Shown here one piece after another: positions 7,801 through 50,732 of a DNA stretch of 54,086 nt. Positions within the stretch are counted from its first letter, which is position 1. Every line of letters starts with the position of its first letter. Source of the DNA: a bacterium F11 (GTDB lineage Bacteria; Elusimicrobiota; Elusimicrobia; F11); NCBI GenBank assembly GCA_002176905.1, contig MSYE01000011.1, positions 1-54,086 on the forward strand, in the 5' to 3' direction. The notes below the pieces were generated by a model. That model did not search any database. It saw only the letters and a list, made by a program, of their open reading frames with translations, and was not told the origin of the DNA. The position numbers and the translations under genes were made by a program.

Positions 7801-7972
7801 TTTTAATTGCATTGGATTTTGAAGCAGGGGCTCGAAAATTGATGAGGAGGTCGTACGTTTTTAAACTGGCCGTCTCAATAAAAGTGGTACGAGAAAGAAA
7901 GGACCAGGCTATTCCAACGGAAATAACCAATCCAATTGTAATCTCAATAAGAAATCGATATTTGGATCTCAT
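4808..7972 (-). CDS. CHASE2-domain transmembrane Ser/Thr protein kinase
   Basis: 1054 residues from the ATG at 7972 (a TTG at 7984 is in frame but lies before the predicted transcript start). Order: membrane segment about 8-25; extracytoplasmic CHASE2 sensor about 30-375; three membrane segments about 380-450; two TPR-like helical pairs about 470-545; kinase domain about 576-840 with G-x-G-x-x-G, catalytic K606, HRDIKPGN (Asp704), DFG 722-724 and an A-P-E equivalent (S-P-E). A Pro-rich linker with two 15-residue repeats and an acidic tail follow. The tail holds four D-K-T motifs (Thr 993, 1001, 1008, 1016). PP2C and FHA genes follow directly. The kinase has every catalytic residue and should be active; its ligand is unknown. 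Confidence 0.93.
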   Translation of the reverse strand: MRSKYRFLIEITIGLVISVGIAWSFLSRTTFIETASLKTYDLLINFRAPASKSNAIKIIEIDEESVQSLGRWPWPRSIVAALIDELFGYGAKVIGVNIFFSDADQNEGLEEISRLEESFREILDETRLRLRRKRISLVRFDEFLQDLEDTRMSLNGDKILSRSIDEAGNVILPMYFTPGVPQGENLDPLPTYFEKEEVKGSTSEEIDLPLSIAAGVPLTDFGSVAAAIGHSNLDPDLDGTVRRMAPVMKYGDRVYPSFGLQIIREYKNLPRDAFGWDSSTEFALRSFKVPIDDSGTTFLQFAGPAGTFDRHSALDVLAGAVPEKELMNKMVLVGLTAPGLGQNFVVPSGEAFTGLELLATHIDNILSQRFMSRPTWASHLEWGFIGICALFIILGLPFLRGRFSVPLALIIFLGVAGTSAFLFVKKGMWVTPVYGLSLLLVGFLFSLGRRLLFTEKGKELVEAEGLETNKMLGLSFQGQGMLDLAFEKFRKCPLDSQMKDLLYNLGLDMERKRQFAKAAAVYEHIGSVDLKYKDIQKKIELLKKAGEGAVFGSVGKKGSDATVVVEGLGQSTTLGRYEVVRELGRGAMGIVYLGKDPKINRQVAIKTLRFEEDVDEEQAKSIKERFFREAESAGNLTHPNIIRIFDAGEDQDVAYIAMELIEGEDLKRSCEKANLLPFERVVEYVAQVAEALAFAHNQGVVHRDIKPGNIMLLANGTLRITDFGIARIQATSKTATGAVLGTPAYMSPEQVNGKKVDGRADIFSLGVTLFELLTGEKPFVADSIAALLYRIANVDHPDPREFNPKLPEAIVPVINKALAKDLENRYQTADDMARDLRTCLNQMIGTAPAPIPIAINPEKPPAPPKKENIASVPPKPPVEQMPPAQPPAPTPPIEQTPPAQPPASAPPTESMGSKPPISDVPDSETPKSSLEQSSFLSDLQDVLKTSDQPQTDFPQADHTSERVDLISNSETIDNGPAAPDDAMGIPEQENDKTVLDVGDKTMVDNDKTIIDKDDKTVVMESDSNFNIPLMDNLESTYHPPFKDPTTDKNQVDDK
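4913..5005 (-). repeat. Four-copy D-K-T-(V/M/I)-(L/V/I)-(D) motif array in kinase tail
   Basis: Codons for four threonines (993, 1001, 1008, 1016 of the kinase) sit 8, 7 and 8 residues apart, each in D-K-T followed by two aliphatic residues. In the first three, Asp is at +3. pThr-x-x-Asp is a known preference of some FHA domains (for example Rad53 FHA1). That these are phosphosites is an inference. Confidence 0.6.
5255..5344 (-). repeat. Tandem 45-bp repeat (two copies) in proline-rich kinase linker
   Basis: Two adjacent 15-residue units of the form P-(V/I)-E-Q-x-P-P-A-Q-P-P-A-x-x-P are encoded by two 45-bp copies (5300-5344 and 5255-5299), with further degenerate Pro-rich sequence on both sides. 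Such in-frame minisatellites often vary in copy number between strains. Confidence 0.75.
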
Positions 7973-7984
7973 TGTCTGAAACAA

Positions 7985-8013
7985 AAGTAACCCAAAAGGG
8001 GTTTCTTTTCAAG
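7985..8013 (-). promoter_or_regulatory. Promoter for the kinase gene
   Basis: On the minus strand TTGAAA (8008-8013) is followed by a 17-base spacer and TACTTT (7985-7990). The predicted start near 7978 gives a leader of about 6 bases before the ATG at 7972, with no Shine-Dalgarno. The spacer holds a small hairpin (AACCC/GGGTT, 7990-8004). The -10 is only a partial match. Confidence 0.4.
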
Positions 8014-8031
8014 TGAAATTTTGTTGATTTT

Positions 8032-8517
8032 CTACGCTATTTCAGAAGAGTCTTCTTCCCGCTTGGCTTTTTGCTTGGACTCAATCCGCTTTTCGATGGT
8101 TGTTTGGATCTTTTGGTGTATATCGGGAAGGGTTTTGGCCAAGCGTGCCATGGCTTCGTGTGTCAATATGAGGAGATCGGCTCCCTGTTCTCCTGCCGTC
8201 GCTGTTGCGGTGGCTGATGTGGGCCTTAGCAGCGAAATCTCTCCAAAATAAGCAGGAGGAGCCAAATCCGCCAAATGGAGTTTGGCCCCCTTGTTTTTTG
8301 TGGTAATCGAGACATCCCCTTTTCGGATGATGAACATACGATTTGCTATTTCTCCTTGAAAAAGGATGGTTTTTTTGGCCGAGAAGGATTCCTTCTGAAG
8401 AGAAAATAGAATTCCTTTTAATTGGTCATCTGGAACATCCACAAGAAAATCAATTTTCTTTAGGATTTCTAGGGTTGCCGCAAACTCGCGAGGATCAAGA
8501 TCGACTGGATTACTCAA
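8032..8517 (-). CDS. Stand-alone cyclic nucleotide-binding-domain protein
   Basis: 161 residues: a single cNMP-binding beta-barrel (about 15-130) and a short charged helical tail, with no DNA-binding domain and no membrane segment. The barrel shows the usual G-E-x-x-x-x-M-F-I-I-x-x-G pattern and F-G-E-I-S-L-L of the phosphate-binding cassette. The Arg normally found in the R-(S/T)-A-T part of that cassette is replaced (T-S-A-T), so cAMP/cGMP binding may be altered or absent. The start is TTG with AGGAG six bases upstream. It lies just upstream of the kinase gene on the same strand and may feed a signal into the module. Confidence 0.85.
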   Translation of the reverse strand: MSNPVDLDPREFAATLEILKKIDFLVDVPDDQLKGILFSLQKESFSAKKTILFQGEIANRMFIIRKGDVSITTKNKGAKLHLADLAPPAYFGEISLLRPTSATATATAGEQGADLLILTHEAMARLAKTLPDIHQKIQTTIEKRIESKQKAKREEDSSEIA

Positions 8518-8596: not shown

Positions 8597-8605
8597 TGAT
8601 AGACT
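8597..8605 (+). promoter_or_regulatory. Extended -10 element for the glutamine amidotransferase-era pair
   Basis: TG-A-TAGACT: TG at 8597-8598 and TAGACT at 8600-8605. The expected start at about 8612 is one base before the ATG at 8613. No Shine-Dalgarno is present (the preceding bases are C-rich). No convincing -35. Confidence 0.5.
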
Positions 8606-8612
8606 CCCCCAG

Positions 8613-9347
8613 ATGATTCATGTTTTGATCCACTTTCAAACAGAAACCCTTGGCACCCTCGAAAACCGATTAAAGGAAGCCGGCCACTCTTATCGGGAAA
8701 TTCATTTATATAGGGGGGAAGCCCTTCCTTCTATAGAAGATGTGACGGGTCTCATTGTTATGGGGGGGCCAATGGGTGTCACAGAAATTGATCTCTATCC
8801 TTATATATTAGAGGAAACACAATTGATTGGATCATGCATTAGGAAGAATTTGCCGGTTCTTGGTATCTGCTTAGGGGGTCAGTTGATTGCTCACGCATTG
8901 GGTTCAAAAGTGTTTCCGAATCGTTTTAAGGAGGTGGGATGGGACCTTGTTTCACTGACCGACGAGGCCCTCTCTGACCCAGTTTTTAAGGGAACAAAGA
9001 AAGATTTTCTTGCCTTTCATTGGCATGGAGATACCTTTGATCTCCCAAAGGGAGCCATCCATCTGGCCAAAACAAGTCGATGCCGCAATCAGGCTTTTCG
9101 CTATGGAAAAACGACTTATGGTTTTCAGTTCCATCTCGAGACAAATCCGGAGATGATTCATCAATGGATTGGTTCACCTGAAGGAAAGGCGATGTTGGAA
9201 TCTGCAGGGGAGGATGCCAGTAAAGTATGGAATCAAACATCACAAGGTTGTTCCATGATGGAACCCATTGCAGATCGAATTTTTAGCCGATATCTTCGGA
9301 TGGCTTTCCCCAATAACATTGTGACGGGTTCCCCAGGTCATGTCTAG
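8613..9347 (+). CDS. Class I glutamine amidotransferase (GMP-synthase-like)
   Basis: 244 residues, a stand-alone triad glutaminase fold. The nucleophile elbow is G-I-C-L-G-G (Cys near residue 91) and the His-Glu pair is in the Q-F-H-L-E-T stretch near 173-178. V-M-G-G-P-M-G near residue 50 forms the oxyanion strand. No synthetase domain is attached, so the ammonia acceptor is unknown; homologues are often annotated as GMP synthase-like or gamma-glutamyl hydrolase-like. It overlaps era by 8 bases, which suggests one transcript. Confidence 0.88.
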   Translation: MIHVLIHFQTETLGTLENRLKEAGHSYREIHLYRGEALPSIEDVTGLIVMGGPMGVTEIDLYPYILEETQLIGSCIRKNLPVLGICLGGQLIAHALGSKVFPNRFKEVGWDLVSLTDEALSDPVFKGTKKDFLAFHWHGDTFDLPKGAIHLAKTSRCRNQAFRYGKTTYGFQFHLETNPEMIHQWIGSPEGKAMLESAGEDASKVWNQTSQGCSMMEPIADRIFSRYLRMAFPNNIVTGSPGHV

Positions 9348-10327: not shown

Positions 10328-10356
10328 TTGACAGATTTGAACGGCTTAATTAAAAT
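10328..10356 (+). promoter_or_regulatory. groESL promoter (sigma-70 type)
   Basis: Perfect -35 TTGACA (10328-10333), 17-base spacer, and TAAAAT (10351-10356). The start would be near 10363, giving a 5' leader of about 117 bases before groES. Confidence 0.8.
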
Positions 10357-12589: not shown

Positions 12590-12598
12590 TGGTATGAT
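12590..12598 (+). promoter_or_regulatory. Extended -10 element for valS
   Basis: TG-G-TATGAT (TG 12590-12591, hexamer 12593-12598). The predicted start at about 12605 is two bases before the ATG. No Shine-Dalgarno and no clear -35. Confidence 0.55.
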
Positions 12599-12606: not shown

Positions 12607-15408
12607 ATGTCTGAATCCAACTCCTCTTCCCCATCATCCAAATCTGATACTTTTTCACTTACTAAGGTTTATCAACCCAAAGAAGTGGAAGCCCGTTGGT
12701 ATGAAGTTTGGGAGAAAAAGGGTTATTTTGAACCTTCTTCCAATAATTCGACTTATACCATTGTCATTCCGCCTCCCAACGTAACCGGTTCCCTCCATAT
12801 GGGACATGCTCTCAATTCCACCTTACAGGATGTATTAATTCGGTATCAAAAAATGAGGGGAAAAGCTGCTTTGTGGGTTCCGGGCACTGATCATGGTGGA
12901 ATCGCCACTCAAAATGTGGTTGAGAAAATTCTCAAATCGGAAAAAACAGATCGCCATCAAATGGGACGAGAAACCTTCCTGAAACGAATGTGGAAATGGC
13001 GGGAAGAAACAGGAGATTCCATCCTCTCCCAGCTGAGACGCCTTGGCACAACGTTGGATTGGAAACGGAATCGATTTACAATGGATGAGGTGTGCTCCAA
13101 AGCTGTTCGGTATGCGTTTGTTGAATTCTTTAACAAAGGGCTTCTTTACAGAGGGAATCGATTGGTGAATTGGTGTCCCCGTTGCCACACAGCTTTGGCA
13201 GATATTGAAGTCGAACACAACGAAACAAAAGGGAACCTTTGGCATATCCGTTACCCTATTGTTGAGCGTCGGAAAAAAAACCGGCAGAACAATGCCGATA
13301 CCAACCCAGATTCATCTTTCGAAAAGGGATACATCACCGTTGCGACCACTCGCCCGGAAACCATGTTGGGGGATTCGGCCGTTGCGGTTCATCCAAAAGA
13401 CCCAAGATACAAAGATGTTATTGGTCTCCATATTCAACTTCCCTTAACTTCTCGAACCATTCCCATTATTGCAGATGAGGCCGTGGATAGATCTTTTGGG
13501 TCAGGTGCTGTCAAAGTCACGCCAGCCCATGATCCCGCAGACTTTGAGATGGCTGAGCGTCATGATCTTTCCCATATCACCGTTATCGGTTTTGAAGGAA
13601 AGATGACCAAAGAGGCAGGACTTCGCTATGAGGGGACAGATCGTTTTGATGCAAGAAAAATAGTGGTTGAGGGATTAGAAGAGCTGGAACTAATTGAGAA
13701 AGTGGAGGATTACAATTTGTCAATTTCCGTTTGTTATCGGTGTGACGATATCATTGAACCTCTTGAATCCGAGCAATGGTTTCTATCCGTAAAAGAAATG
13801 GCGAAGAAAGCACGAGAAGCCAATAAAAGTGGTCAAGTTAGAATTGTTCCCAATAGTTGGGAAAGTCCTTATCAGCTTTGGCTCCGAAATTTGAAGGATT
13901 GGTGTGTTTCTCGGCAGATTTGGTGGGGACATCGCATTCCCGTTTGGTACTGTGTAAAGGAAGTCCAAGGTAAATCAATTCCAACGGACTGTCCTCCCAT
14001 GGCTGCCATCGAAGAACCCAAGCTTTGCCAACAGTGTGGAAACAAAAAACTCATCCAGGATCCTGATGTCTTGGATACCTGGTTTTCTTCAGCCCTTTGG
14101 CCGTTTTCGGTATTTGGTTGGCCCAACAATACAGAAGATCTAAAGCGGTTCTATCCCACAACGACGCTCGTAACCGGTCATGAGATTTTGTATTTGTGGG
14201 TAGCGCGAATGGTCATGTTTGGCCTTTATTTCTTGGATAAGGTTCCCTATTCGACCGTCTTCATTCATGGAATCGTTAGAGATAAAAAAGGACGAAAAAT
14301 GTCCAAATCCCTTGGGAACGTAATTGATCCCCTGGATCTCATTGCGGAATATGGGGCCGATGCGATGCGGTTTTCATTGACACAATCCGCTGCTCCTGGT
14401 CGAGATATGCAAATCTCAAAAGATAGTTTTATAGGGGCCCGCAACTTCTCAAACAAAATATGGAATGCCACCCGTTTCTCATTGACCCATCTTAAAAACA
14501 TGAAGAGTATTCCACCTTTAAAAGAAGTAAAGAATCATTTTGACTCAGTGGACAAATGGATTCTCCATGAATTTAATGAAGTGATTCGTCGAATGACCCA
14601 GGCAATGGATCAATATGATATGGATATGGCGGCCCGTGAGATATACAACTTTTTTTGGGCCCAATTTTGTGATTGGTATTTGGAAATGATCAAGCCCCGT
14701 TTGGATAAAGATTTGGCTGCACAATTTGGTTACACCTCTGAATCAGGAGAGGCGGCCAGGACTGTGCTTGCCACCATTCTTGAAGGATGCTTGCGTCTTC
14801 TTCATCCCTTTATGCCTTTTTTGTCAGAGGAATTGTGGCAAAAACTACCCAAGCCATTGGGTAATTCGGCGGAGCATGTAATGGTTAGTGAATGGCCTCA
14901 CGAATCCAAAGACAGAGAAGATAAAAAGGTTGCTGATAAGGTGGAACTGTTAAGGGAAATTATTACCAAGTTGCGTTCCCTTCGAAGTGAGATGGGAATT
15001 CCCGTGATGCAGAAAATCCAGGTTATTGCACGAACCGAGAAAAAACAAACCATTGATCTTCTCCAAGAACACCAACCCATTTTGACGTTTCTTAATAGCA
15101 AGGTGGATAAACTCACCATTGATGCGGCTTATATGCGACCCAAAGCCACGGCCGTTGCGGTGGTTCCTGGAGCTGATTTGTATGTTCCACTTGAGGGACT
15201 GATTGATTTTTCCAAGGAGAAATCTCGCTTAGAAAAAGAATTGGGGACCGTCCGAAGTGATGCGGAGCGCTTATCCAAGAAATTAACCAATCAAGATTTC
15301 CTCTCCTATGCCCCAAAAGAGGAGGTCAACAAGGCCAAGACCCGCCTTCAGGATTCAGAGGAAAGAGTAAAAAGGTTGTCAGAGAATATTAATCTTCTTA
15401 CCACCTAA
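12607..15408 (+). CDS. valS: Valyl-tRNA synthetase
   Basis: 933 residues, normal for bacterial ValRS. It charges tRNA-Val. Class I motifs: H-M-G-H at 64-67 and K-M-S-K-S at 564-568. The CP1 editing domain is inserted between (A-T-T-R-P-E-T-M-L-G-D near 245). The W-W-G-H-R-I-P block before K-M-S-K-S is typical of Val/Ile/Leu enzymes. The C-terminal approximately 65 residues form the ValRS coiled-coil arm. A Cys-x-x-Cys pair near residues 197 and 475 may bind zinc. No Shine-Dalgarno: see the extended -10 placed 8 bases upstream. Confidence 0.98.
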   Translation: MSESNSSSPSSKSDTFSLTKVYQPKEVEARWYEVWEKKGYFEPSSNNSTYTIVIPPPNVTGSLHMGHALNSTLQDVLIRYQKMRGKAALWVPGTDHGGIATQNVVEKILKSEKTDRHQMGRETFLKRMWKWREETGDSILSQLRRLGTTLDWKRNRFTMDEVCSKAVRYAFVEFFNKGLLYRGNRLVNWCPRCHTALADIEVEHNETKGNLWHIRYPIVERRKKNRQNNADTNPDSSFEKGYITVATTRPETMLGDSAVAVHPKDPRYKDVIGLHIQLPLTSRTIPIIADEAVDRSFGSGAVKVTPAHDPADFEMAERHDLSHITVIGFEGKMTKEAGLRYEGTDRFDARKIVVEGLEELELIEKVEDYNLSISVCYRCDDIIEPLESEQWFLSVKEMAKKAREANKSGQVRIVPNSWESPYQLWLRNLKDWCVSRQIWWGHRIPVWYCVKEVQGKSIPTDCPPMAAIEEPKLCQQCGNKKLIQDPDVLDTWFSSALWPFSVFGWPNNTEDLKRFYPTTTLVTGHEILYLWVARMVMFGLYFLDKVPYSTVFIHGIVRDKKGRKMSKSLGNVIDPLDLIAEYGADAMRFSLTQSAAPGRDMQISKDSFIGARNFSNKIWNATRFSLTHLKNMKSIPPLKEVKNHFDSVDKWILHEFNEVIRRMTQAMDQYDMDMAAREIYNFFWAQFCDWYLEMIKPRLDKDLAAQFGYTSESGEAARTVLATILEGCLRLLHPFMPFLSEELWQKLPKPLGNSAEHVMVSEWPHESKDREDKKVADKVELLREIITKLRSLRSEMGIPVMQKIQVIARTEKKQTIDLLQEHQPILTFLNSKVDKLTIDAAYMRPKATAVAVVPGADLYVPLEGLIDFSKEKSRLEKELGTVRSDAERLSKKLTNQDFLSYAPKEEVNKAKTRLQDSEERVKRLSENINLLTT

Positions 15409-19853: not shown

Positions 19854-19872
19854 TTTGTTGAACTACTGATTA

Positions 19873-20253: not shown

Positions 20254-20265
20254 GATTGACCGTTC

Positions 20266-21444: not shown

Positions 21445-21447
21445 TTT

Positions 21448-22271: not shown

Positions 22272-22273
22272 TG

Positions 22274-27530: not shown

Positions 27531-27959
27531 TCAGTGCATTCGAGCGGCTTCTTGACAAATTTTACCGAGTGTCTTATTCGACAGAATATTCATCACGGCT
27601 CCGTCGAGTTCATTGCAGATGGTCTGACTGAGGCATCCAGCGATTTCGTGACAATTGGATGATTGGTTCTCAGGATAACTACAAAGCATGGGTTCAAATG
27701 GTCCTTCTAAGGCCGTAATAATCATGAAGAGATTAATTTCATCAAGTGGTTTGGAGATCTGAAATCCGCCCCGTGGTCCGCGAATTGCTGTCACAAGGTC
27801 TGCTTTTTTGAGTTTAGAAAAAATTTGCTCCAAATATGGAAGAGGAATATTCTGCCGTTGCGAAACAGTATGTAAATTTTCCGGTTTCCCATTGCTATAC
27901 CTAACCAGATGAATCAAGGCCCGGAGAGCATAGGTGGTTTTTGTTGATAATTTCATCAT
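27531..27959 (-). CDS. Rrf2-family (IscR/SufR-like) Fe-S regulator
   Basis: 142 residues. Winged-helix Rrf2 fold: T-T-Y-A-L-R-A-L near residue 8-15 and R-G-P-R-G-G-F at 60-66. Three cysteines, C93, C103 and C109 (spacing 9 and 5, versus 5 and 5 in E. coli IscR), could bind a [2Fe-2S] cluster; a fourth, C115, follows. It heads the Fe-S operon and probably regulates it. Its own promoter carries an IscR-type site. No Shine-Dalgarno precedes the two ATGs. Confidence 0.93.
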
Positions 27960-27968: not shown

Positions 27969-27997
27969 AGCATAATATAGTTGACTAAAAAAGTCAA
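27969..27997 (-). promoter_or_regulatory. Promoter of the Rrf2-suf-isc operon
   Basis: Minus strand: TTGACT (27992-27997), 17-base spacer, TATGCT (27969-27974). The start near 27962 gives a leader of about three bases before ATG 27959. A second TATAAT (27999-28004) lies upstream as an alternative. Confidence 0.7.
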
Positions 27998-29109: not shown

Positions 29110-29118
29110 TGCTATTAT
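29110..29118 (+). promoter_or_regulatory. Extended -10 element for murC-murB
   Basis: TG-C-TATTAT (TG 29110-29111, hexamer 29113-29118). Standard spacing puts the start on the A of the ATG at 29125. No Shine-Dalgarno. Confidence 0.6.
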
Positions 29119-35683: not shown

Positions 35684-35712
35684 TTGAAGAAAGGGAAGTT
35701 CCCTTTTAGACT
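35684..35712 (+). promoter_or_regulatory. pilT promoter with a palindrome filling the spacer
   Basis: TTGAAG (35684-35689), 17-base spacer, TAGACT (35707-35712). The spacer (35690-35706) is exactly the palindrome AAAGGGAA-G-TTCCCTTT. The predicted start near 35719 lies three bases before the pilT ATG. Confidence 0.55.
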
Positions 35713-35721: not shown

Positions 35722-37149
35722 ATGGACGCGCCAAATTCGCCAAATCCCAAAGATCCGGCTGAGCAATCACAACCCTCATCTATGTCAGAACAGGAGGGTG
35801 AAGAGAATTCAGAGGATCAATCACCCAAAGAGAACGAATCAACAAATGGACCGGAGAATGTGATCCACCCGGATCCTGCCCCTCCTTCGAAAAAGAAATC
35901 TCCGAAAATATCAAAGGATTTTATTTCAACTCTTTCTGGTGAGATGTCTGATGTGCCTGATATTTCTTCCCTTCAAGATCAGGATAAAGGAGAAGAGGCT
36001 GCTAAGGGGCCCTCTAGAGCTGAAAGAAAGAATCCTCTCAGTTCGTTGCCTTTGGAAAAGGTTGATGAATTGGTTCATCGGTGGCTCCGGAAAATGGTTG
36101 AAAGAAGGGCGTCTGATCTTCATATTCGCGTCGGGACTCCTGTTATTTATCGCATTGACGGCCATCTGAAATCGGAAGATCGGATTCCACTGCCACCGGA
36201 AATTGTAAGAGAAGCGCTTTACTTAATGCTCCATCCACGTCAGCGAAAAATCTTTGAGGCCAAACATGAAGTTGATTTTTCTTATGCGATTCCCGACTAT
36301 GGTCGATTTCGTGGCAATGCCTTTCAACAAAGAGGATCTGTTGCTGTTGTCTTGAGACAGATACCAACAAAGATACCGAGCTTTTCTCAACTTCAACTTC
36401 CCAAAGTGATGGAAAAGTTTTGTCAGCTTTCAAATGGCTTGGTCCTGGTTTGTGGTCCAACTGGTAGTGGAAAATCAACAACCTTGGCGGCGGGAATAGA
36501 ATATATCAATCTTGATCGCTCGGAGCACATCGTTACAGTAGAAGATCCGATTGAGTTTCTTTATCGGGATAAGAAATCCATTATTAGCCAAAGAGAGTTG
36601 GGGTCTGATACTGTCAGCTTTCAGGAAGCTCTTAAACACGTCCTTCGTCAGGATCCCGATGTTGTTCTCCTTGGTGAAATGAGAGATTTAGAGACAACAT
36701 CTACTGCCATTACCGCGGCCCAAACAGGTCATTTGGTATTTTCCACTCTCCATACGACCGATGCGGTACAAACCATCAACCGTATTGTAGACCTGTATCC
36801 TCCTCATCAACAACATCAGGTTCGCTTGCAAATATCGGATGTGTTGAAAGGTGTTATTTGTCAAAAGCTAATTCCCCACTCAAAAGGTGTCGGACGTGTC
36901 CCAAGTTGTGAAGTGTTGGTTGTTACCGCCCTCGTAAAGAAAGCCATTGCAGAAAACCAGATGCAAGACGTCTCAGACGCCATCCGACAAGGAAAATATT
37001 ATGGCATGCAGACCTTCCATCAGGCTCTTCTTTTGCTCTACAAAGAGGGGAAAATAAAGCTGGAAGATGCACTCGACGCTGCCAGCAATCCCGAAGAGCT
37101 AATGATGGCTATTCGCGGTATCACAGCGGGTACAGAAGGGGTTGGGTAG
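35722..37149 (+). CDS. pilT: PilT-like type IV pilus retraction ATPase with long N-terminal extension
   Basis: 475 residues; PilT is normally about 345-370. Residues 1-108 are an acidic, Pro/Ser/Glu-rich disordered extension. Then the PilT N-domain (D-L-H-I-R-V-G near 133), Walker A G-P-T-G-S-G-K-S-T near 248, the Asp box near 275 (V-E-D-P-I-E-F), Walker B L-L-G-E-M-R-D near 312, and H-T-T-D-A near 340. The extension could be a regulatory or partner-binding tail. No other pilus gene is present; it sits directly downstream of ftsZ with its own promoter. Confidence 0.92.
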   Translation: MDAPNSPNPKDPAEQSQPSSMSEQEGEENSEDQSPKENESTNGPENVIHPDPAPPSKKKSPKISKDFISTLSGEMSDVPDISSLQDQDKGEEAAKGPSRAERKNPLSSLPLEKVDELVHRWLRKMVERRASDLHIRVGTPVIYRIDGHLKSEDRIPLPPEIVREALYLMLHPRQRKIFEAKHEVDFSYAIPDYGRFRGNAFQQRGSVAVVLRQIPTKIPSFSQLQLPKVMEKFCQLSNGLVLVCGPTGSGKSTTLAAGIEYINLDRSEHIVTVEDPIEFLYRDKKSIISQRELGSDTVSFQEALKHVLRQDPDVVLLGEMRDLETTSTAITAAQTGHLVFSTLHTTDAVQTINRIVDLYPPHQQHQVRLQISDVLKGVICQKLIPHSKGVGRVPSCEVLVVTALVKKAIAENQMQDVSDAIRQGKYYGMQTFHQALLLLYKEGKIKLEDALDAASNPEELMMAIRGITAGTEGVG

Positions 37150-37228: not shown

Positions 37229-37234
37229 TAAAAT
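37229..37234 (+). promoter_or_regulatory. -10 element for pheA operon
   Basis: TAAAAT; expected start near 37241, five bases before the pheA ATG. No Shine-Dalgarno and no strong -35. Confidence 0.4.
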
Positions 37235-37245: not shown

Positions 37246-38322
37246 ATGTCAAATGATCAGAAATTGGAAAAACAAAGAAAACGAATCGATTTGATTGATA
37301 CCAAATTGTTGGAGCTTCTAACCGAACGGGCAGATGTTGCAAAAAAGATTGGTCAGATCAAAGCCCGAAGCGGATCCGATATTTATGTGTCCGATCGGGA
37401 AGTCCAGATTCTTAACCGGATGCTGGAGGCCAACAAGGGGCCCTTAACCGATGACGATTTGGAAGATATCTTTCAAACGGTATTAACTGCTTGCCGGTCT
37501 TTGCAAAAACGGTTGGAAGTGGGTTATCTTGGACCAGAGGCCACTTTCACCCATCAATCGGCCATCAAACATTTTGGTCGAAATACCGATTATAAATCTC
37601 TTCCTAGTATCAAGGATGTTTTTGAGGAAGTGGAAAAAAAGAGGGCTGATTTCGGAGTGGTCCCAATTGAGAATTCTACCGAAGGAGTCGTCAATCACAC
37701 GCTGGATATGTTTATCAAATCTCCTCTTGTGATTGTTGCGGAAAGACAAGATCGGATTTCACACGACCTTCTATCCCTCTCCCCCACGCTTCGCAAAATT
37801 AAGAGGATTTATTCCCATCCCCAAGCCCTTGCTCAATGTCGGGGTTGGTTGGAAGTTCATTTGCCGGGAGTCGTCATACAAGAAACAAACTCCACGGCGG
37901 ATGCGGCTATACAAGCCACGCTTGATGCTTCTTGCGCCGCTGTGGCCTCAGGGCTGGCTGGACAAATTTACCATCTAAAAACAATTTCCCGTGAGATTCA
38001 GGATACGGTTGACAACGCAACCCGCTTTCTTGTTATTGGCAGGGAATCTCCTCCTGCCTCGGGTCATGACAAAACATCCATTCTTTTCTCTATTAAGGAT
38101 CGGGTTGGCGCTTTGTTTGAGATGTTGCAGCCTTTTCGTCGAGGAAAAATCAATTTAACAAAGATTGAATCACGTCCCACGAAAAAGAAAGCATGGGAAT
38201 ACATTTTTTATGTCGACTTAATCGGTCATCAATCTGAAAAAAGGGTTCAGAAAGCATTGTCTCAACTCAGACATCTCTGCAAGCACCTGAAGATTCTTGG
38301 GTCCTACCCTTATCGTGCTTAA
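37246..38322 (+). CDS. pheA: Bifunctional chorismate mutase/prephenate dehydratase
   Basis: 358 residues. AroQ-type mutase about 1-90 (R-x-x-I-D-x-I-D-x-x-L-L-E-L and K-I-G-x-I-K), dehydratase about 92-270 (G-Y-L-G-P-E-A-T-F, E-N-S-T-E-G near 144, and T-R-F near 263), ACT domain about 275-355 for Phe feedback. Converts chorismate to phenylpyruvate. First gene of the aromatic operon; hisC follows after 15 bases. Confidence 0.97.
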   Translation: MSNDQKLEKQRKRIDLIDTKLLELLTERADVAKKIGQIKARSGSDIYVSDREVQILNRMLEANKGPLTDDDLEDIFQTVLTACRSLQKRLEVGYLGPEATFTHQSAIKHFGRNTDYKSLPSIKDVFEEVEKKRADFGVVPIENSTEGVVNHTLDMFIKSPLVIVAERQDRISHDLLSLSPTLRKIKRIYSHPQALAQCRGWLEVHLPGVVIQETNSTADAAIQATLDASCAAVASGLAGQIYHLKTISREIQDTVDNATRFLVIGRESPPASGHDKTSILFSIKDRVGALFEMLQPFRRGKINLTKIESRPTKKKAWEYIFYVDLIGHQSEKRVQKALSQLRHLCKHLKILGSYPYRA

Positions 38323-43193: not shown

Positions 43194-43199
43194 TATACT
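43194..43199 (+). promoter_or_regulatory. -10 element for hexapeptide-repeat gene
   Basis: TATACT; predicted start 43206, one base before the ATG at 43207. No Shine-Dalgarno. Confidence 0.4.
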
Positions 43200-43206: not shown

Positions 43207-43917
43207 ATGAACGTAAACCGTCGATCATCGAAGAATTGGAGAGATATCCTGATTACTCCCTTTGTTGAAATTGTGATATTAGGAGGGTCATTGGGAGGCG
43301 CTTTTGCCATATATCGGCGCTGGGAACTAACCCTTTTTCTGATATTGATCTTGTTCTATGTCCTTTTTATTTTGATGACGCTTCTTGTGTTGCGAATCAT
43401 TCGGTTGGGATTAGCGGTGCGTCGAGGAATTTATTCCTATGACACCAAGCCATGGCTTTTTTATTTTTGGAACCTTCACGCCTTCTTGTGTTCTACCAAC
43501 CTGAATTTGTTTTACCTAAATGGTCTTCTTCCTCCTATATTAAGGCGATATTTTTACCAACTACTAGGAACAAAAATGAAAGGAGGATCTATTTCCGTGG
43601 CTGGAAGAATTATGGATCCCTACCTTGTCGATATTCAAGGCCCCGCCCGAATTGAAGATGATGCCCTTTTAATGCCCCATGGATATGCCGTTGGATCCTC
43701 GGACTTATTAATTCTTGATCAGATTAGTTTGGGGAAAGGTGTCTATATCGGGGCCAGATCCACTCTCATGCCGGGTGTTGTGGTCGGAGAGAATTCCATG
43801 ATCAAACCCATGTCCATTGTGCCAATGAACACAAAGATTCCCCCCAATGAGATTTGGGGGGGAAACCCCGCCTGCAAGACAGCGGATGTGGACCAACCTT
43901 ATCAAGAGGCAATCTAA
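43207..43917 (+). CDS. Membrane-anchored left-handed beta-helix (hexapeptide) acyltransferase-like protein
   Basis: 236 residues. Two membrane segments at about 16-35 and 40-63, then a basic linker, then hexapeptide repeats (about 120-225: L-G-K-G-V-Y-I-G-A-R-S-T-L-M-P-G-V-V-V-G pattern) as in LbH transferases, ending I-W-G-G-N-P-A. It resembles the terminal module of Pls/colanic-type acyltransferases, but the acceptor is unknown. An in-frame TTG at 43201 is possible; the ATG fits the -10 element better. Confidence 0.75.
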   Translation: MNVNRRSSKNWRDILITPFVEIVILGGSLGGAFAIYRRWELTLFLILILFYVLFILMTLLVLRIIRLGLAVRRGIYSYDTKPWLFYFWNLHAFLCSTNLNLFYLNGLLPPILRRYFYQLLGTKMKGGSISVAGRIMDPYLVDIQGPARIEDDALLMPHGYAVGSSDLLILDQISLGKGVYIGARSTLMPGVVVGENSMIKPMSIVPMNTKIPPNEIWGGNPACKTADVDQPYQEAI

Positions 43918-44123: not shown

Positions 44124-45803
44124 ATGACCGAAGAACTGGGAATGGAAGAAATACTGGCTCAAAGTATAGAGGCCAGTGCTGGATCCATTGTTGAAGGAAC
44201 TGTTGTCAGCCAAACGCAAACTCACCTATTGGTGGATGTTGGTCTCAAACAAGAGGCCACTCTTCTTTTAAAAGAATTTCCCGGTCCAATTCCTGCCACA
44301 GGAGAAAAAATTCCGGTCCTTATTATTCGTATGAGGGGGGCTGAAGGTCGCCCGATCGTTTCGTGGAAGCAAGCAAGAGAACGCACCAACTGGGATAAAA
44401 TCACAGCGTCTTATCAAAATAAGGAATCTGTTGAAGGACGTATTGTTAAGCGGATCAAAGGTGGTGTCCAAGTTGATATTGGATTGGATGCCTTTATGCC
44501 GGCCTCCCAAATTGATGAAAAACCTGTTCCCAAACCGGAAGATTGGGTAGGAAAAACCGTCCGGGTTTTGGTCCTTGAGATGGATCGAGCAAAAAGCAAT
44601 GTATTGGTATCTCGAAGGCGTGTTTTGGAACAAGAAAAGAAAGTTAAAAAAGAAGCTGTCTTAAAGACATTAAAAGAAGGCCAGGTTTACAAAGGGAAAA
44701 TAACGGGTATCACCAATTTTGGGGCCTTTATCGATATCGGAGGAGCCGAGGGATTGCTCCATGTTTCGGATATGGCTTGGACCAAAGTTGAAAATCCCAA
44801 TAAAATTTTTAAAGTGGGCGAAGAGATCGAAGTCAAAGTTTTGAAATTTGACGCAAATGCCCAAAAGTTTGCCTTGGGTCGTAAACAGCTATTGCCTCAT
44901 CCCTGGGATGGAATTGAATCCAAGTATCCCATTGGATGCACCATTAAGGGGAAGGTCAGTGCTTTTGCCTCTTTCGGGGCGTTTATTGAGGTGGTCCCTG
45001 GAATCGAAGGGATGGTCCATATCACGGAATTCTCATGGATCAACAAGCCCAAATCGCCAAAAGATATGTTCAAGTTGGGACAAGAAGTTGAGGTCAAAGT
45101 CATAGGATTGACCAGAAACCAGGAAAAGATGTCTCTGAGTCTCAAAAGAATGCAATCCAATCCTTGGGAAGAAGCTTTCAAGAAATATCCCCCAAAATCC
45201 AAGATAGAAGTGACGGTTACCCACCTCGCGCCATTTGGGGCTTTTGTTAAAACGCCTCTCGGCATTGAAGGATTGGTCAAAATACAGGACCTCTCTTGGA
45301 CAGAACGCATTGAACACCCCCATAAAGTTTTAAAAGAAGGCCAGACCTTGAAGGTTGTTGTCCTCGAAGTTGATGTGGCCAATGAAAAAATGTCACTTGG
45401 AATAAAGCAGCTCACACCAGACCCGATTGGTTCAATGAGGATTGGTACCTCCGTGAAGGGAAAGGTTACAAAGATAACGGATTTTGGTCTTTTTGTGAAA
45501 CTCGATTCGGGTCTTGAAGGTCTTGTTCGGTCTTCTGAAATTAAGTTGGATCGGTCCATGTTTGGCGGATCCAAAGAGGAACATCGTTCCAAAGATGAAC
45601 CCATAAAAAGTTTTTCAGTTGGAGAAGATGTTTCCGCTTCTGTTATTAAGATCAACAAGAAAGAACGCAAAATCGACCTTTCGATCCGTCGTTACGAAAA
45701 AAATCAAGAAAAAGAACTTCTCCGAAAATACAGCTCCAATACAGGCCGTCCGACCCTAGGCGAAACCACTGGGTGGATGGAAGATTCCGGTCCCAAAGAA
45801 TAG
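44124..45803 (+). CDS. rpsA: 30S ribosomal protein S1
   Basis: 559 residues with six S1/OB repeats: about 22-88, 103-172, 195-262, 280-350, 367-436 and 448-533. The later repeats carry the typical F-G-A-F-(I/V) and G-L-(V/L)-H or G-L-V stretches. S1 binds mRNA on the small subunit and helps translation of structured leaders. Upstream TTG/GTG starts (44106, 44109) are in frame, but the Shine-Dalgarno spacing favours the ATG at 44124. The repeat count and length match the classical long form. Confidence 0.96.
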   Translation: MTEELGMEEILAQSIEASAGSIVEGTVVSQTQTHLLVDVGLKQEATLLLKEFPGPIPATGEKIPVLIIRMRGAEGRPIVSWKQARERTNWDKITASYQNKESVEGRIVKRIKGGVQVDIGLDAFMPASQIDEKPVPKPEDWVGKTVRVLVLEMDRAKSNVLVSRRRVLEQEKKVKKEAVLKTLKEGQVYKGKITGITNFGAFIDIGGAEGLLHVSDMAWTKVENPNKIFKVGEEIEVKVLKFDANAQKFALGRKQLLPHPWDGIESKYPIGCTIKGKVSAFASFGAFIEVVPGIEGMVHITEFSWINKPKSPKDMFKLGQEVEVKVIGLTRNQEKMSLSLKRMQSNPWEEAFKKYPPKSKIEVTVTHLAPFGAFVKTPLGIEGLVKIQDLSWTERIEHPHKVLKEGQTLKVVVLEVDVANEKMSLGIKQLTPDPIGSMRIGTSVKGKVTKITDFGLFVKLDSGLEGLVRSSEIKLDRSMFGGSKEEHRSKDEPIKSFSVGEDVSASVIKINKKERKIDLSIRRYEKNQEKELLRKYSSNTGRPTLGETTGWMEDSGPKE

Positions 45804-46025
45804 AGATAGAGTTACCCTCCTTTCATATTTTCTCTAACCTTCTGCCGTTCAGATCCATCCCCCAAGTGCCATTCTCCTGCAAATTTAAGAAATTTCGGTG
45901 TTTTTTTGATTTTTTGAGCCTGTTCGTCTGCCTGTTGGACGGCAGGTGGATGGGAAATGCCCCTTTCTGGGAATTTCGGATCTCCCCTGTTTGAAATAAG
46001 AATCACCTGGTAAACTAGAGCTGAT
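45804..46025. other. 222-base intergenic region with weak terminator-like hairpin
   Basis: AAATTT-AAG-AAATTT (45881-45895) followed five bases later by seven T could be a weak terminator for rpsA. A CTGCC/GGCAG hairpin (45928-45945) also occurs. An open minus-strand frame crosses it, but I do not call a gene. Confidence 0.35.
46008..46016 (+). promoter_or_regulatory. Extended -10 element for the metallopeptidase gene
   Basis: TG-G-TAAACT (TG 46008-46009, hexamer 46011-46016). Predicted start 46023, three bases before the ATG. TTGAAA upstream is only 14 bases away, so it is not a proper -35. Confidence 0.45.
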
Positions 46026-48935
46026 ATGGCCAATGTGAAACGAATCCACCCATTCCTATTTTTCTGTTTTTTGTTTGTCTTTGCTCCCTTTTGTTTTGGT
46101 TTTGGTAACAACAATGTTCGAGTTGATCAATTTGATTGGATGAAGGTTCAGACCGAACATTTTGATCTGTATTATGATAAGTCGACGGAAAAAATGGTTC
46201 CCCATACGGCCCTTTTCCTTGAAAAAGCTTGGAAGGAGGTGGGGGATAAACTGCAATTTCACGTAAAAGAACGAACACCTTTCTTTCTTTATTCCAATCA
46301 CAACGAATTTGAACAAACCAACATTGTTCCCATTGGCGAAGGAACAGGGGGTGTCACAGAGGCTTTTAAGAATCGGTTTCTCGTTTTCAATGATGGTTCG
46401 GAGACATGGCTGAAACATGTTATTTATCATGAATTTGCCCATGTTGTTCAATTTAACGTTCTCTATGGCGGATTTTGGAAATCAATCCGTCTTCTTAAGT
46501 CGCCGTTTTATCCTCTATGGGTTATGGAGGGCATGGCAGAATGGGTCACCGAACCGATGGATGCTCCCACCGGAGATATGATGATCCGAGACTCTGTTTA
46601 TCATGGGTATCGAATTCCCATCCCGGAGCTTCAAGGATTCAACCATCTTAAACCCAACCAAATCACTTTGGCCTATAAAACCGGAACAGCCGCCATGTTG
46701 TTCTTGGAAGATGAATATGGACCGGAAACAATTGGGAAACTTCTGATAAAAATGGAGGAGCATTTCGATATTTCCGCGGCATTTGATCAATTGTTGGGTA
46801 TTGATATATATCGATTGGATTTTCGGTTTGAGGAATGGCTCAGAGATCGATATGACGAGTTTTATAAAGAAGCGAAAGTTGGGAGTTATTATGGAATCCA
46901 AATGACCCAATCGGATGGCCTTCCTCAGGCCAATCATGCCCTTATTTTTTCGGAAGATGGGAGCAAAATATATTATTTGGGTGACAAGGGAGGGCCTACC
47001 CAGGTCTATCAATTGGACATTGCCACCCAAAAAGTCCAACCTCTTCTCGGTTTGAAATGGTCAAAAATGGAAAATATCCATTCCCGTGGACGTGCCCTTT
47101 CTCTCTCAAGAGACGGAAGATGGTTGGCCTTTGCAGCAGAGAAAAAACAAAGGGATTATCTCTTTTTATTGGATCTAAAAAGGAAGAAGTTAAAGAAGAT
47201 CAAAGTTCCTCTTGAACAGATCCGATCCCCGATCTTTTCTCCGGTTGAAGATCATCTCGTTTGTGTGGGGATGACGCGGGGTTTCAATGACCTCTACTTG
47301 ATTGACCAAAAAGGAAACATTCTTAAAAGGTTGACCGATAATCCCCAAGATGAAAAAGATCCTGTTTTTTCTCCGGATGGAAAGGAGGTCATCTATTCTG
47401 GAGAGGTTCGCAATGCGGAAGGAACCGATCCAGCGGGTCGGGATCTCTTTTCTGTTTCACTTGGCAACAACGCTTTGAACCGTCTAACCTATTTAGAAGG
47501 AGATGTGACCGAACCAGAGGTTCTTCCCGATGGGTCTGTGGTTTTTGTCAGAGATCGAAATGAATCAGGAGAATATGGATTCAATTTGTATCATTATGAT
47601 CCCTCTTTCTCACATCTTACTCAGTTAACCAATTTTATCGGAGGAGGATTTTCTCCTCGATTTCACAAAGATGAAAACAAACTTTATTATATTGCCTTTG
47701 ACAAAGGAGAAAGACACCTTTATCAGGGAATTGATGGACTCCAGACCCCGATAACACCCCCTCCTCCCCAAGTGGTGGACGCTGTTGATGAAGAACCGGA
47801 GAAAAGAGATACAGACGAATCGGAGAACGAAGACGTTGATCAAATTCCCCGAAAAGATTCACTCGCGATCACACGGGCTCACCAGGCCTGGCCCAATAGC
47901 ACGGATTCCTCTCTCTTTCTGCGGCGTGCTCAACCCTATCGATTTCGCATGTCCACCGATCTCTTTTTGCCATTCTTTTTTTATTCCACACAGGATGGTT
48001 TGGTTGCAGCGGATATATGGCAATTCTCTGATTACCTTGGGAATCATCTTTTTCAACAACAGCTTCAATATGCATCTAAAAATGATCTGGTTGATTTGGC
48101 AGCCTTCTATACCTACGCTCGGTTCCGACCCAGATGGACACTGGGCTTTCGCATGGATCAATACTTTGAAGATTTCGATGAACAACATCGAACCCGCCGA
48201 ATAGACGGTATCGGTTTGATGACCTATCCTTTGGACAGAATTAAATCGGTGAGTCTTGGTGTTGGAGTTTCCGACGAGGAGGACTCCTTTTTGGATCTCT
48301 CCGATTCGGAATTGGATACCCGTCAACGTTTTTGGGTCGCCGGATTTTCACATGATACCGTCACAGGACGGTATTTGGTTCCAACCAAGGGAAGACGGCT
48401 CAGTTTGTTGTATCAAGAATCTGTTAAGACGTTAAAAGGGAATCAACAATACAAAACCGGTGTAGCTGAGGCGGTTCAATACGTCCCGTTACCAAGAGAA
48501 AGCACGCTTGCGGCTCGTCTTTTTTATGGGCGAAGTGTGGGAGATCAAGCCCAGGTTTTCAGGTTGGGGGGAAGAGATCGAATTCGGGCCGTGAACCGTT
48601 CCGGACAAAAACACAAAAAGACAAATGTCGTTATTGGCGGATCCGAGCTTCGACTACGGATGAAATATTTGAATGCCCGAACACGTTTTTTGTTTCCTGA
48701 TTTCTTTTTTAAAGCTGCTTACCTTATTCTTTTTGATGATGTGGGATACGGATGGGACAACAGGCAAGAAAGAGATGAATTTGAACAAGATCGCTTGTTG
48801 AACTCAGCCGGTGTGGCCATTTCTTGGCCCACCTTCATTCTGCAGACCTTTCAAATGAATCTAACAGTTCAATGGGCAAAACGAACCGACGATGGAACAG
48901 AGGTATGGTATGTTACGGTTGGTCCGTCATATTAG
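46026..48935 (+). CDS. Secreted HEXXH metallopeptidase with TolB-like propeller and outer-membrane-type barrel
   Basis: 969 residues. Signal peptide about 1-25. Gluzincin-like domain: HEFAH at 135-139 and a likely third ligand E168 in M-E-G-M-A-E-W. Residues about 290-570 are PD40/TolB-type beta-propeller blades (F-S-x-D-G, S-P-D-G-K-E-V-I-Y). An acidic linker (580-615) follows, then about 350 residues of amphipathic strands ending in W-Y-V-T-V-G-P-S-Y, the aromatic-ended last strand of outer-membrane barrels. It probably sits in the outer membrane with the peptidase on one side. Substrate unknown. Confidence 0.8.
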   Translation: MANVKRIHPFLFFCFLFVFAPFCFGFGNNNVRVDQFDWMKVQTEHFDLYYDKSTEKMVPHTALFLEKAWKEVGDKLQFHVKERTPFFLYSNHNEFEQTNIVPIGEGTGGVTEAFKNRFLVFNDGSETWLKHVIYHEFAHVVQFNVLYGGFWKSIRLLKSPFYPLWVMEGMAEWVTEPMDAPTGDMMIRDSVYHGYRIPIPELQGFNHLKPNQITLAYKTGTAAMLFLEDEYGPETIGKLLIKMEEHFDISAAFDQLLGIDIYRLDFRFEEWLRDRYDEFYKEAKVGSYYGIQMTQSDGLPQANHALIFSEDGSKIYYLGDKGGPTQVYQLDIATQKVQPLLGLKWSKMENIHSRGRALSLSRDGRWLAFAAEKKQRDYLFLLDLKRKKLKKIKVPLEQIRSPIFSPVEDHLVCVGMTRGFNDLYLIDQKGNILKRLTDNPQDEKDPVFSPDGKEVIYSGEVRNAEGTDPAGRDLFSVSLGNNALNRLTYLEGDVTEPEVLPDGSVVFVRDRNESGEYGFNLYHYDPSFSHLTQLTNFIGGGFSPRFHKDENKLYYIAFDKGERHLYQGIDGLQTPITPPPPQVVDAVDEEPEKRDTDESENEDVDQIPRKDSLAITRAHQAWPNSTDSSLFLRRAQPYRFRMSTDLFLPFFFYSTQDGLVAADIWQFSDYLGNHLFQQQLQYASKNDLVDLAAFYTYARFRPRWTLGFRMDQYFEDFDEQHRTRRIDGIGLMTYPLDRIKSVSLGVGVSDEEDSFLDLSDSELDTRQRFWVAGFSHDTVTGRYLVPTKGRRLSLLYQESVKTLKGNQQYKTGVAEAVQYVPLPRESTLAARLFYGRSVGDQAQVFRLGGRDRIRAVNRSGQKHKKTNVVIGGSELRLRMKYLNARTRFLFPDFFFKAAYLILFDDVGYGWDNRQERDEFEQDRLLNSAGVAISWPTFILQTFQMNLTVQWAKRTDDGTEVWYVTVGPSY

Positions 48936-48958
48936 AATGAGCTTTGTTGCTGGTGAGG

Positions 48959-48964
48959 TATAAT
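48959..48964 (+). promoter_or_regulatory. -10 element for amidase operon
   Basis: Perfect TATAAT; predicted start 48971, four bases before ATG 48975. No clear -35 and no Shine-Dalgarno. Confidence 0.55.
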
Positions 48965-48974
48965 TATTAAAGGT

Positions 48975-50732
48975 ATGATACGGTTTTTCATGAAAAAGTT
49001 TCTAATTCCTGTTGTCTCTATCCTTCTTTTTGGATCAAAAGTCCTTTGGGCTGACCCTTTTCTTCGGATTGTCCAACCTTTTGAAAATTATGATATTCCT
49101 CCCGTTGAATCCTCTTTTGTTTTTGGTTCTGTTTTGCCGGCAACCGCTTCCCTAACAATCAATGGCGCATCTGTTACTCCTCACACCAATGGCGGGTTTA
49201 TAAAAATTATTCCTTTTAACGAGGGACGGTTTAAAATAAATGCTGTTGCATTTGATGGTGTTTCAACAACAACGGTCACAAGAGAAGTCAATGTTGCTCC
49301 AATGAGGAGCAGTTTTTCATTAACGGAGAAAAAAATTCGGCCTCTCTCACCGACAACACGCGTGGTGGTTCGACCTGGTGATATTGTTGATGTTATCTTC
49401 CAAGGAGCCCCGGAAGGAAAGGCCACTTTTCGAATCGGAAAAAAAGGCCCCTATTTTCCAATGTTCGAACAGCCTGGTGATGTCCGGGGGATTTATCAAG
49501 GGGCTTATTCGATTCAGCCCAATGACAAATTTGATGGAGCCGACATTTATTTTGGGCTGAGACGCTCCGATGGGAAGAAAATCAATTCACGTGCCCGTGC
49601 GAAGATCATTGTTCAGAGACGAAAACTTCCCCGTTTCGTTGAAATTAAGGATGATGCGGTTCTTTTAACAGGTCCAGGGAGTAGTTATGGGTATCACCTT
49701 TTTCTCGATAAAGGAATTCGTCTGGAAGTTACCGGAGAATTGGGGAATTTCTTGAGAGTATTGCTGAGTCGCGATACACAGGGATGGATCAAAAAGTCTG
49801 TGGCAAAAGAGCTCCCTGCAGGAACACCAATGACACGGAGCATTACCCGGAATATGCGCATTGATTATATCGAGGGAAACACGCTTATTGAATTGCCACT
49901 AAAGAATCGACATGCGTATAAAATTGAGCAATTCCTTTTTCCACATCGTCTTCGCCTGACTCTATATGGTGTAACACCCGACACAGACCGCATTCGATTA
50001 AAATCAAAAGAAACCATTGTGGAAAGCGTAGATTGGACCCAAAACGAACCCGGATCGGTTACTTTTGAGATTCTCACCAAACAAGAATATGCTTGGGGTT
50101 ATCATGCACGGTACGAAGGAACCACCTTCATGTTGGAGATTCGGCATAAACCCGAAAATTACTCAGGGCGTGGTTTACGGGGAATTCGGGTTGCTTTGGA
50201 TGCTGGTCACACCAAGAGTAGTTTTGGAACCATTGGTCCATGGGGGAATACCGAAGCTGAGGTCAATCTGATGATCTCAAAGGTGATCAAAGTGGCCTTG
50301 GAGAGGAGGGGGGCTGAAGTTGTCATGATTCAAGATGGTACCAAGGAAATCTCGCTTCAGAACCGAGTAAATCTGGCCTGGAATGAAAAAGCGGACTTTT
50401 TTATTAGCATCCATTGTGATGCAACAGGAGAGGGTAATGATCCCTTTGAACAGCAGGGATTCAGTGTTCACTATTATCAGCCTCAAAGTCGACCTTTTGC
50501 TGAAATTCTCCATGACATTTATGGGGAACAGATGAAAATCACAGATCAAGGCCTATGGCGGTCAAATTTGGCCGTTTGTCGAATGCCTCAAATGCCTTCC
50601 CTTCTATTGGAGATGGCTTTTCTTATTCTGCCAGAATATGAAGAGCTCCTTTTAACAGAGAAGTTTCATCAATCTGTCGCCAATGTGTTAGTATCCAGCC
50701 TAATGGTTTATTTGGATGAATCAATGAAATGA
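48975..50732 (+). CDS. N-acetylmuramoyl-L-alanine amidase (Amidase_3) with N-terminal beta domains
   Basis: 585 residues. Signal peptide about 1-26; Ig-like domains about 28-215; SH3-like domain about 222-280; AMIN-like region about 290-392; C-terminal zinc amidase about 400-583. Zinc ligands H412 (D-A-G-H), E427 and H480 (S-I-H-C-D), and catalytic E546 (L-L-E-M-A-F). Cleaves stem peptides from MurNAc in the periplasm. First gene of a run whose next genes encode an NlpC/P60 enzyme and two transporters. ATGA overlap with the next gene. Confidence 0.94.
   Translation: MIRFFMKKFLIPVVSILLFGSKVLWADPFLRIVQPFENYDIPPVESSFVFGSVLPATASLTINGASVTPHTNGGFIKIIPFNEGRFKINAVAFDGVSTTTVTREVNVAPMRSSFSLTEKKIRPLSPTTRVVVRPGDIVDVIFQGAPEGKATFRIGKKGPYFPMFEQPGDVRGIYQGAYSIQPNDKFDGADIYFGLRRSDGKKINSRARAKIIVQRRKLPRFVEIKDDAVLLTGPGSSYGYHLFLDKGIRLEVTGELGNFLRVLLSRDTQGWIKKSVAKELPAGTPMTRSITRNMRIDYIEGNTLIELPLKNRHAYKIEQFLFPHRLRLTLYGVTPDTDRIRLKSKETIVESVDWTQNEPGSVTFEILTKQEYAWGYHARYEGTTFMLEIRHKPENYSGRGLRGIRVALDAGHTKSSFGTIGPWGNTEAEVNLMISKVIKVALERRGAEVVMIQDGTKEISLQNRVNLAWNEKADFFISIHCDATGEGNDPFEQQGFSVHYYQPQSRPFAEILHDIYGEQMKITDQGLWRSNLAVCRMPQMPSLLLEMAFLILPEYEELLLTEKFHQSVANVLVSSLMVYLDESMK

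Follow-up and report, generated by a model that had tools for sequence, protein, structure and literature searches.

Where does translation begin on the mRNAs of Elusimicrobiota, at a Shine-Dalgarno (SD) sequence or at the 5' end of the transcript itself? The question is raised by contig MSYE01000011.1 (assembly GCA_002176905.1) of bacterium F11, an uncultured member of this phylum, whose whole 54,086 nucleotides were analysed and are called the window. A preliminary description of this DNA had pointed to ten genes at the heads of transcription units with a -10-like hexamer directly before the ATG. We conclude that about half of the unit heads in the window are very probably of a leaderless type, with a sigma70-type -10 element abutting the ATG and RNA 5' ends that are predicted, not mapped.

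Zheng et al. 2011 (PMC3160421) reported leaderless genes for 207 of 953 bacterial genomes on the basis of the motif TANNNT, which lies approximately 12 bp upstream of the start. In the section of that survey that names groups with leaderless genes Elusimicrobiota does not appear, but 8 of 20 "Other Bacteria" are counted there without names. Neither a report of leaderless genes in Elusimicrobiota nor mapped transcription start sites from the phylum were found in the accessible parts of the open-licence PMC literature. The class is thus already known, and what is new, on good support, is a lineage for which no report was found. If the conclusion is true, one more lineage joins those with abundant leaderless genes.

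A TANNNT hexamer before the heads of units

TANNNT ends 6-11 nt before the ATG at 11 of the 20 unit heads. Dinucleotide shuffles of each start's 60-nt upstream stretch give a mean of 2.78 heads, and none of 5000 shuffles reached 11. Internal genes carry the hexamer in the same range at 2 of 26 starts (expected 2.38), which sets them apart from the heads (Fisher p 6.7e-4). The sites and their genes are as follows.

1198..1203, minus strand: SurA-like -10 TATAAT, 8 nt before ATG 1189
1201-1206, minus strand: overlapping TATTAT, with -35 TTGAAT 17 nt upstream
479..1189, minus strand: SurA_N-domain gene with putative leaderless-type ATG (PF13624 from residue 1)
7984..7989, minus strand: kinase -10 TACTTT, 11 nt before ATG 7972; -35 TTGAAA at 17 nt
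4808..7972, minus strand: CHASE2-Ser/Thr kinase gene (family match), start shifted from TTG 7984
8600..8605, plus strand: amidotransferase -10 TAGACT, 7 nt before ATG 8613; TGn extended -10, no -35
8613..9347, plus strand: glutamine amidotransferase class I gene (family match)
12593..12598, plus strand: valS -10 TATGAT, 8 nt before ATG 12607; TGn
12607..15408, plus strand: valS (family match); start Met column invariant with 16 relatives
27969..27974, minus strand: Rrf2 -10 TATGCT, 9 nt before ATG 27959; -35 TTGACT at 17 nt
27531..27959, minus strand: Rrf2 regulator gene (family match), head of the suf gene run
29113..29118, plus strand: murC-murB -10 TATTAT, 6 nt before ATG 29125; TGn
29125..31386, plus strand: murC-murB fusion gene; start MFK common to 27 of the 38 closest relatives
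35707..35712, plus strand: pilT -10 TAGACT, 9 nt before ATG 35722; -35 TTGAAG at 17 nt
35722..37149, plus strand: pilT (family match); start Met column invariant with 15 relatives
37229..37234, plus strand: pheA -10 TAAAAT, 11 nt before ATG 37246; no clear -35 or TGn
37246..38322, plus strand: pheA (chorismate mutase/prephenate dehydratase) gene (family match)
43194..43199, plus strand: hexapeptide -10 TATACT, 7 nt before ATG 43207; no clear -35 or TGn
43207..43917, plus strand: hexapeptide-repeat protein gene (family match), start shifted from TTG 43201
46011..46016, plus strand: metallopeptidase -10 TAAACT, 9 nt before ATG 46026; TGn
46026..48935, plus strand: metallopeptidase/beta-propeller gene (family match)
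48959..48964, plus strand: amidase -10 TATAAT, 10 nt before ATG 48975; no TGn or strong -35
48975..50732, plus strand: N-acetylmuramoyl-L-alanine amidase-like gene, with an in-frame ATG 5 codons in

The gene set comprised 47 genes from the list of open reading frames (ORFs of at least 80 aa) in the 54 kb contig. Of these, 46 have 60 nt or more of DNA before the start and were scored; gene 8-490 has less and was left out. Genes whose neighbour is divergent, or that follow a gap of 35 nt or more, were counted as heads, by our choice, and the rest were taken as internal. Four starts were shifted to internal ATGs (kinase 7972, hexapeptide 43207, groES 10480, rpsA 44124), two of which, kinase and hexapeptide, belong to the eleven and moved from TTG to an ATG 2-4 codons in. 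An SD was called by one rule for all genes: AGGA, GGAG or GAGG 3-13 nt before the start. When 44 of the 47 genes were run against Pfam or NCBIfam (50729, 51535 and 52873 were left out), 43 matched a family at E 0.001 or better, some under the curated cut-off, and gene 28141-28764 had no match in that scan. The window has approximately 44% GC; Rfam and tRNA scans of it found nothing.

All ten hexamers of the preliminary description were recovered by sequence look-up, that of the kinase one base off (7984-7989, minus strand). Its further observations hold as well: none of the ten genes has an SD (0/10), TGn extensions precede four of the hexamers (amidotransferase, valS, murC-murB, metallopeptidase), and internal genes are often SD-led (11/26). 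The eleventh case, the SurA-like gene with TATAAT 8 nt upstream of ATG 1189 on the minus strand, was absent from it, as were the 7 of 20 heads that are SD-led. The leaderless or near-leaderless reading that it proposed is supported by the position of the TANNNT peak, its restriction to heads, the exclusion of SD, the TGn/-35 context and the controls. For the widespread leaderless translation that it suggested, the basis here is 11 of the 20 heads within a single contig of 54 kb.

The enrichment is stable to changes in the rules. Nine of 18 heads retain TANNNT when the two start-shifted genes are dropped (1/5000 shuffles), and the wider range of 5-12 nt returns the same 11 heads (0/5000) with 4 of 26 internal genes (expected 3.06). 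The 1872 non-start ATGs of the window include 102 with TANNNT at 6-11 nt. Sliding 6-nt windows over the heads peak at 11 for 6-11 nt, the overlapping 9-14 nt and 3-8 nt windows hold 8 and 5 heads, and every other holds 0 to 5. When all 64 patterns of the form XYNNNZ were compared at 6-11 nt, TANNNT alone was clearly above shuffles (0/1000); the next best stood at 0.05, as expected among 64. The TANNNT pattern at the heads is real and not due to chance.

Promoter context and two modes of initiation

SD sequences precede 18 of the 46 starts, of which 7 belong to the 20 heads and 11 to the 26 internal genes. Among the heads an SD is found at 0 of 11 with TANNNT versus 7 of 9 without it (p 4.6e-4). 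The elements, their position, their enrichment and this exclusion of SD are read directly from the DNA. Since SD-led heads stand beside TANNNT heads, both modes of initiation are present. Two of the SD-led heads illustrate the second mode.

10328..10356, plus strand: groES promoter TTGACA-17-TAAAAT, the best match of three promoter scans (11/12)
44124..45803, plus strand: six-S1-domain gene, rpsA-like; SD-led head with GGAG 9 nt before ATG, start shifted from TTG 44106

The groES ATG at 10480 is preceded by GGAGGTG 6 nt before it, and the leader would exceed 100 nt if the promoter at 10328-10356 is used. With groES and rpsA led by an SD, and valS and murC-murB of leaderless type in the same contig, this DNA lends itself to testing how the two modes are divided among genes.

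The sites have promoter context of two kinds. The four TGn sites lack a -35 within the top 5% of positions, and a top-5% -35 stands at 17 nt in four others (kinase TTGAAA, Rrf2 TTGACT, pilT TTGAAG, SurA-like TTGAAT, the last for TATTAT). TGn or a strong -35 thus accompanies 8 of the 11 sites, whereas 11.9% of all 1030 occurrences of TANNNT in the window have either (p 4.9e-6). Hexamer positions 3-5 match TATAAT at 18 of 33 bases against a background of 0.305 (p 0.003), and at 15 of 30 when the SurA-like site is dropped (p 0.02). The promoter score was built on E. coli frequencies.

Several observations weigh against the view that these hexamers are the promoters of their genes. The -35 scores of the 11 sites, taken alone, are not above those of all TANNNT (p 0.058). 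Scans for the sigma70 consensus gave no clear overall excess (27, 30 and 29 versus 27.3, 26.1 and 24.6) and list only 3 of the 11 sites: SurA-like (by TATTAT), Rrf2 and murC-murB. Rrf2 and the hexapeptide gene have promoter-like sites approximately 40 nt upstream that reach or exceed the 95th percentile of random stretches; that of Rrf2 has TATAAT 39 nt before the ATG, the far site of the hexapeptide gene outscores the near one, and at pheA near and far sites tie. At the kinase gene a weak hairpin resembling a terminator (8003-7989) has a T-rich tail that overlaps the hexamer and is a possible source of it. The 9 heads without TANNNT would be expected to have promoters upstream, yet only 2 of them show a site above the 90th percentile within 90 nt, so that these promoters are mostly not visible in the 13-90 nt range. 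All 11 TANNNT heads start with ATG (two by our choice over a nearby TTG) versus 25 of 35 others, a preference that reaches only p 0.088. Lastly, a blind search of all gapped three-letter patterns in the last 18 nt before the heads did not single out TANNNT (11 versus 5.6 expected, z 2.9; median of the shuffle maxima 3.4). As TANNNT beats other patterns at the same place yet not in the blind search, the evidence depends on the known position of the -10 element.

Two of the promoters overlap repeats. The palindrome GTTGACTTTTTTAGTCAAC at 27980-27998 covers the -35 of the Rrf2 promoter and is likely an operator for Rrf2 autoregulation. Behind Rrf2 a run of genes on the same strand (17722-27959) encodes SufC/B/D-like proteins, a Rieske protein, two class-V aminotransferases, two NifU-like proteins, an FeS assembly protein and a tRNA thiouridylase. 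At pilT an inverted repeat, AAAGGGAA/TTCCCTTT (35690-35706, by eye), fills the 17-nt spacer of the promoter and would be either the ftsZ terminator or an operator.

Leader length and the alternatives

That the elements drive transcription, where the RNAs begin and how they are translated are inferences from the sequence. A -10 hexamer that ends 6-11 nt before the ATG would set the transcription start between the ATG and approximately 5 nt upstream. With +1 assumed to be the 7th base after the hexamer (6 bases between), the predicted leaders are 0 nt for murC-murB, 1 for the amidotransferase and hexapeptide genes, 2 for SurA-like and valS, 3 for Rrf2, pilT and metallopeptidase, 4 for amidase, and 5 for kinase and pheA. 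Such RNAs would present a terminal or near-terminal 5' AUG without an SD, and 70S ribosomes or ribosomes preloaded with tRNA would load on them in the way described for leaderless mRNAs elsewhere among bacteria. An SD would serve many of the downstream cistrons and other heads (groES, rpsA). E. coli leaderless translation prefers AUG (PMC9031893), and the 11 ATG starts appear in line with this preference.

The long spacing admits a second account, in which most of the -10 elements are real but the leaders are ultra-short (3-8 nt) and initiation is unlike that of true leaderless mRNAs. The median spacer is 9 nt, with the first T 12-17 bp upstream. Spacers of 9-11 nt at 6 of 11 sites exceed the 6-7 bp of Deinococcus, a further point against strict leaderlessness, so that many leaders may be 1-5 nt and not zero; 3-5 nt are predicted for 6 of 11. 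At murC-murB, however, the 7th base is the A of the ATG. All 8 bases between hexamer and ATG of valS are pyrimidines, which makes the A of its ATG the first purine and would favour a start there. In addition, leaderless initiation is described for mRNAs whose AUG lies at the 5' end or close to it (PMC9031893). We consider a distinct ultra-short-leader mode somewhat unlikely, and the long spacing may reflect either strictly leaderless mRNAs or very short leaders.

The elements could also be by-products of AT-rich DNA. The mRNAs would then be leadered and SD-independent, with 5' ends further upstream and S1 recruiting ribosomes to unstructured AT-rich leaders. A protein with six S1 domains is encoded in the window, AT content at -17..-1 is somewhat higher in the 11 TANNNT heads (0.67 versus 0.61), and an AT-rich bias between -20 and -10 may, according to Nakagawa 2017 (PMC5397173), stem from S1 sites. 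Shuffles that keep the AT and dinucleotide content nevertheless yield 2.78 heads and not 11, TANNNT is the sole peak among the 64 patterns of its shape, and the TGn/-35 context of the sites also stands against it. In 9 of the 11 genes even the best site 13-90 nt upstream scores under the 90th percentile of random stretches, the exceptions being Rrf2 and hexapeptide. Moreover, SD sequences should be largely absent under S1/AT-rich initiation without SD, and they stand before 7 of the 20 heads and 11 of the 26 internal genes. This account is improbable. That chance and selection by an eye seeking -10 boxes in a small window made the pattern is scarcely credible: the genes and the 6-11 nt range were picked post hoc and the blind search was not significant, but all 46 starts under a uniform gap rule gave 11/20 versus 2/26, and 5-12 nt the same 11 heads.

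Comparison with other genomes and relatives

With leaderless or nearly leaderless mRNAs as the preferred reading, the window can be set beside known lineages. As in the TA-led genes of Zheng et al. 2011 (PMC3160421), where the first T of TANNNT lies approximately 12 bp upstream with significance against dinucleotide shuffles, the window combines the TANNNT position, an excess over shuffles, no SD, and placement at single genes or operon heads. That survey also found in some genomes a TG peak before the hexamer, said to replace the -35; TGn occurs here at four sites. It differs in the spacing, since the first T lies 12-17 bp upstream in the window, with the median spacer of 9.

Deinococcus-Thermus likewise has TANNNT before ORFs beside a class with a ribosome-binding site (RBS) motif (PMC12340547). 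The D. radiodurans groES is an example there of a classical promoter followed by an RBS, and groES is thus SD-led with a classical promoter in both. Spacing in Deinococcus is 6-7 bp, at nearly a third of D. radiodurans genes (PMC12340547), versus 6-11 nt in the window, at 11/20 heads and 2/26 internal genes. The mycobacterial leaderless transcriptome (PMC3898074, PMC4633059) also joins leaderless and SD genes in one genome; there the 5' ends were mapped by RNA-seq, whereas those of the window are predicted. Bacteroidetes (PMC3155529) similarly initiate part of their genes without SD. The window differs from them in that SD precedes 18/46 starts and its absence among heads tracks the -10 element. 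SD-bearing mRNAs make up 46% in Elusimicrobia and 43% in Endomicrobia (PMC10783764).

The same script was applied to other DNA. One 50 kb stretch of E. coli K-12 (46 CDS, 45 starts scored; araB, which is cut, yabR, yacM and RNA genes were left out) had 1 of 22 heads with TANNNT, with shuffles at 2.75. In the positive control, 50 kb of a 314 kb plasmid of Deinococcus deserti (41 CDS, 40 scored), 6 of 28 heads had it, one of them also with an SD; shuffles gave 1.00, and 1 of 2000 reached 6. The window exceeds D. deserti in the share of heads, but its enrichment over shuffles is approximately 4-fold versus 6-fold. At 17 valS loci of other phyla (none titled Elusimicrobiota) SD was found at 16 and TANNNT at none; the script favours starts with SD, so both figures lean toward SD. 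Other material was not used: viral contigs gave no valS locus for the window protein (and 5 distant ones for the alignment) and their 47 sufB and 80 groEL loci were set aside, as were 154 plasmid records matching murC-murB, all below 60% identity. An Endomicrobium plasmid with 15 short hypothetical genes was judged unfit and not counted.

Relatives of ValS, PilT and MurC-MurB were taken from the best 120 of approximately 8000 matches each. The closest ValS match listed has 75% identity, the best named ones are Elusimicrobia/Elusimicrobiota at 63-64%, and Endomicrobiales follow at 52-54%; the best named matches of pilT (75%) and murC-murB (62-63%) are Elusimicrobia/Elusimicrobiota as well. By these protein relatives the contig belongs to Elusimicrobiota. 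The start Met column is invariant between the window protein and 16 relatives chosen from 120 for ValS, and 15 chosen from 119 for PilT. By eye, 27 of the 38 closest MurC-MurB relatives (P0242-P0279) start MFK, 4 extend past it and 7 start later or are cut. Thirty-seven of them (P0242-P0278, 59-74% identity) match the fusion over at least 91%, and P0279 is without the MurB part. Named Elusimicrobiota matches lower in the best 120 cover the MurC part only, and seven remoter fused proteins (42-44%) are listed. The murC-murB fusion may mark a clade. We give about even chances to such an Elusimicrobiota clade having leaderless or 1-5-nt-leader mRNAs in at least half of its units, to the same extent as in Deinococcus but with the -10 less strictly spaced from the ATG. 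If so, AUGs a few bases from the 5' end must be routinely acceptable to its ribosomes.

Over-long calls among relatives reveal upstream DNA in one frame. They were sought in 41 of the 120 ValS rows, in PilT P0122-P0183 (those over 600 aa left out) and in the MurC rows. Six with at least 10 extra codons and at least 59% identity overrun the conserved start (P0006, P0131, P0143, P0166, P0253 and P0254); the remoter P0050, P0281 and P0284-P0286 were left out. In P0131 and P0143, both PilT, a Tyr-Thr pair (TAY ACN) ends 9 nt before the conserved ATG, at the place of TAGACT in the window; with ACT as the Thr codon it would fit TANNNT. In P0254 the codons TAY TTY lie at spacer 12, a TANNNT is permitted but not forced in P0006 and P0166, and none can be placed in P0253. 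Read by eye and after the fact, these rows suggest that the -10 may be conserved in relatives. Over-long calls are as expected where SD-based callers meet leaderless genes, which may be their cause; if so, such callers would misplace starts in this lineage.

Two further features of the window concern regulatory genes. A 211-aa protein (15549-16184) has a MerR-type HTH followed by a response-regulator receiver, an order that seems unusual. The kinase gene belongs to a run (3075-7972) that encodes the CHASE2-Ser/Thr kinase, a PP2C phosphatase and an FHA protein.

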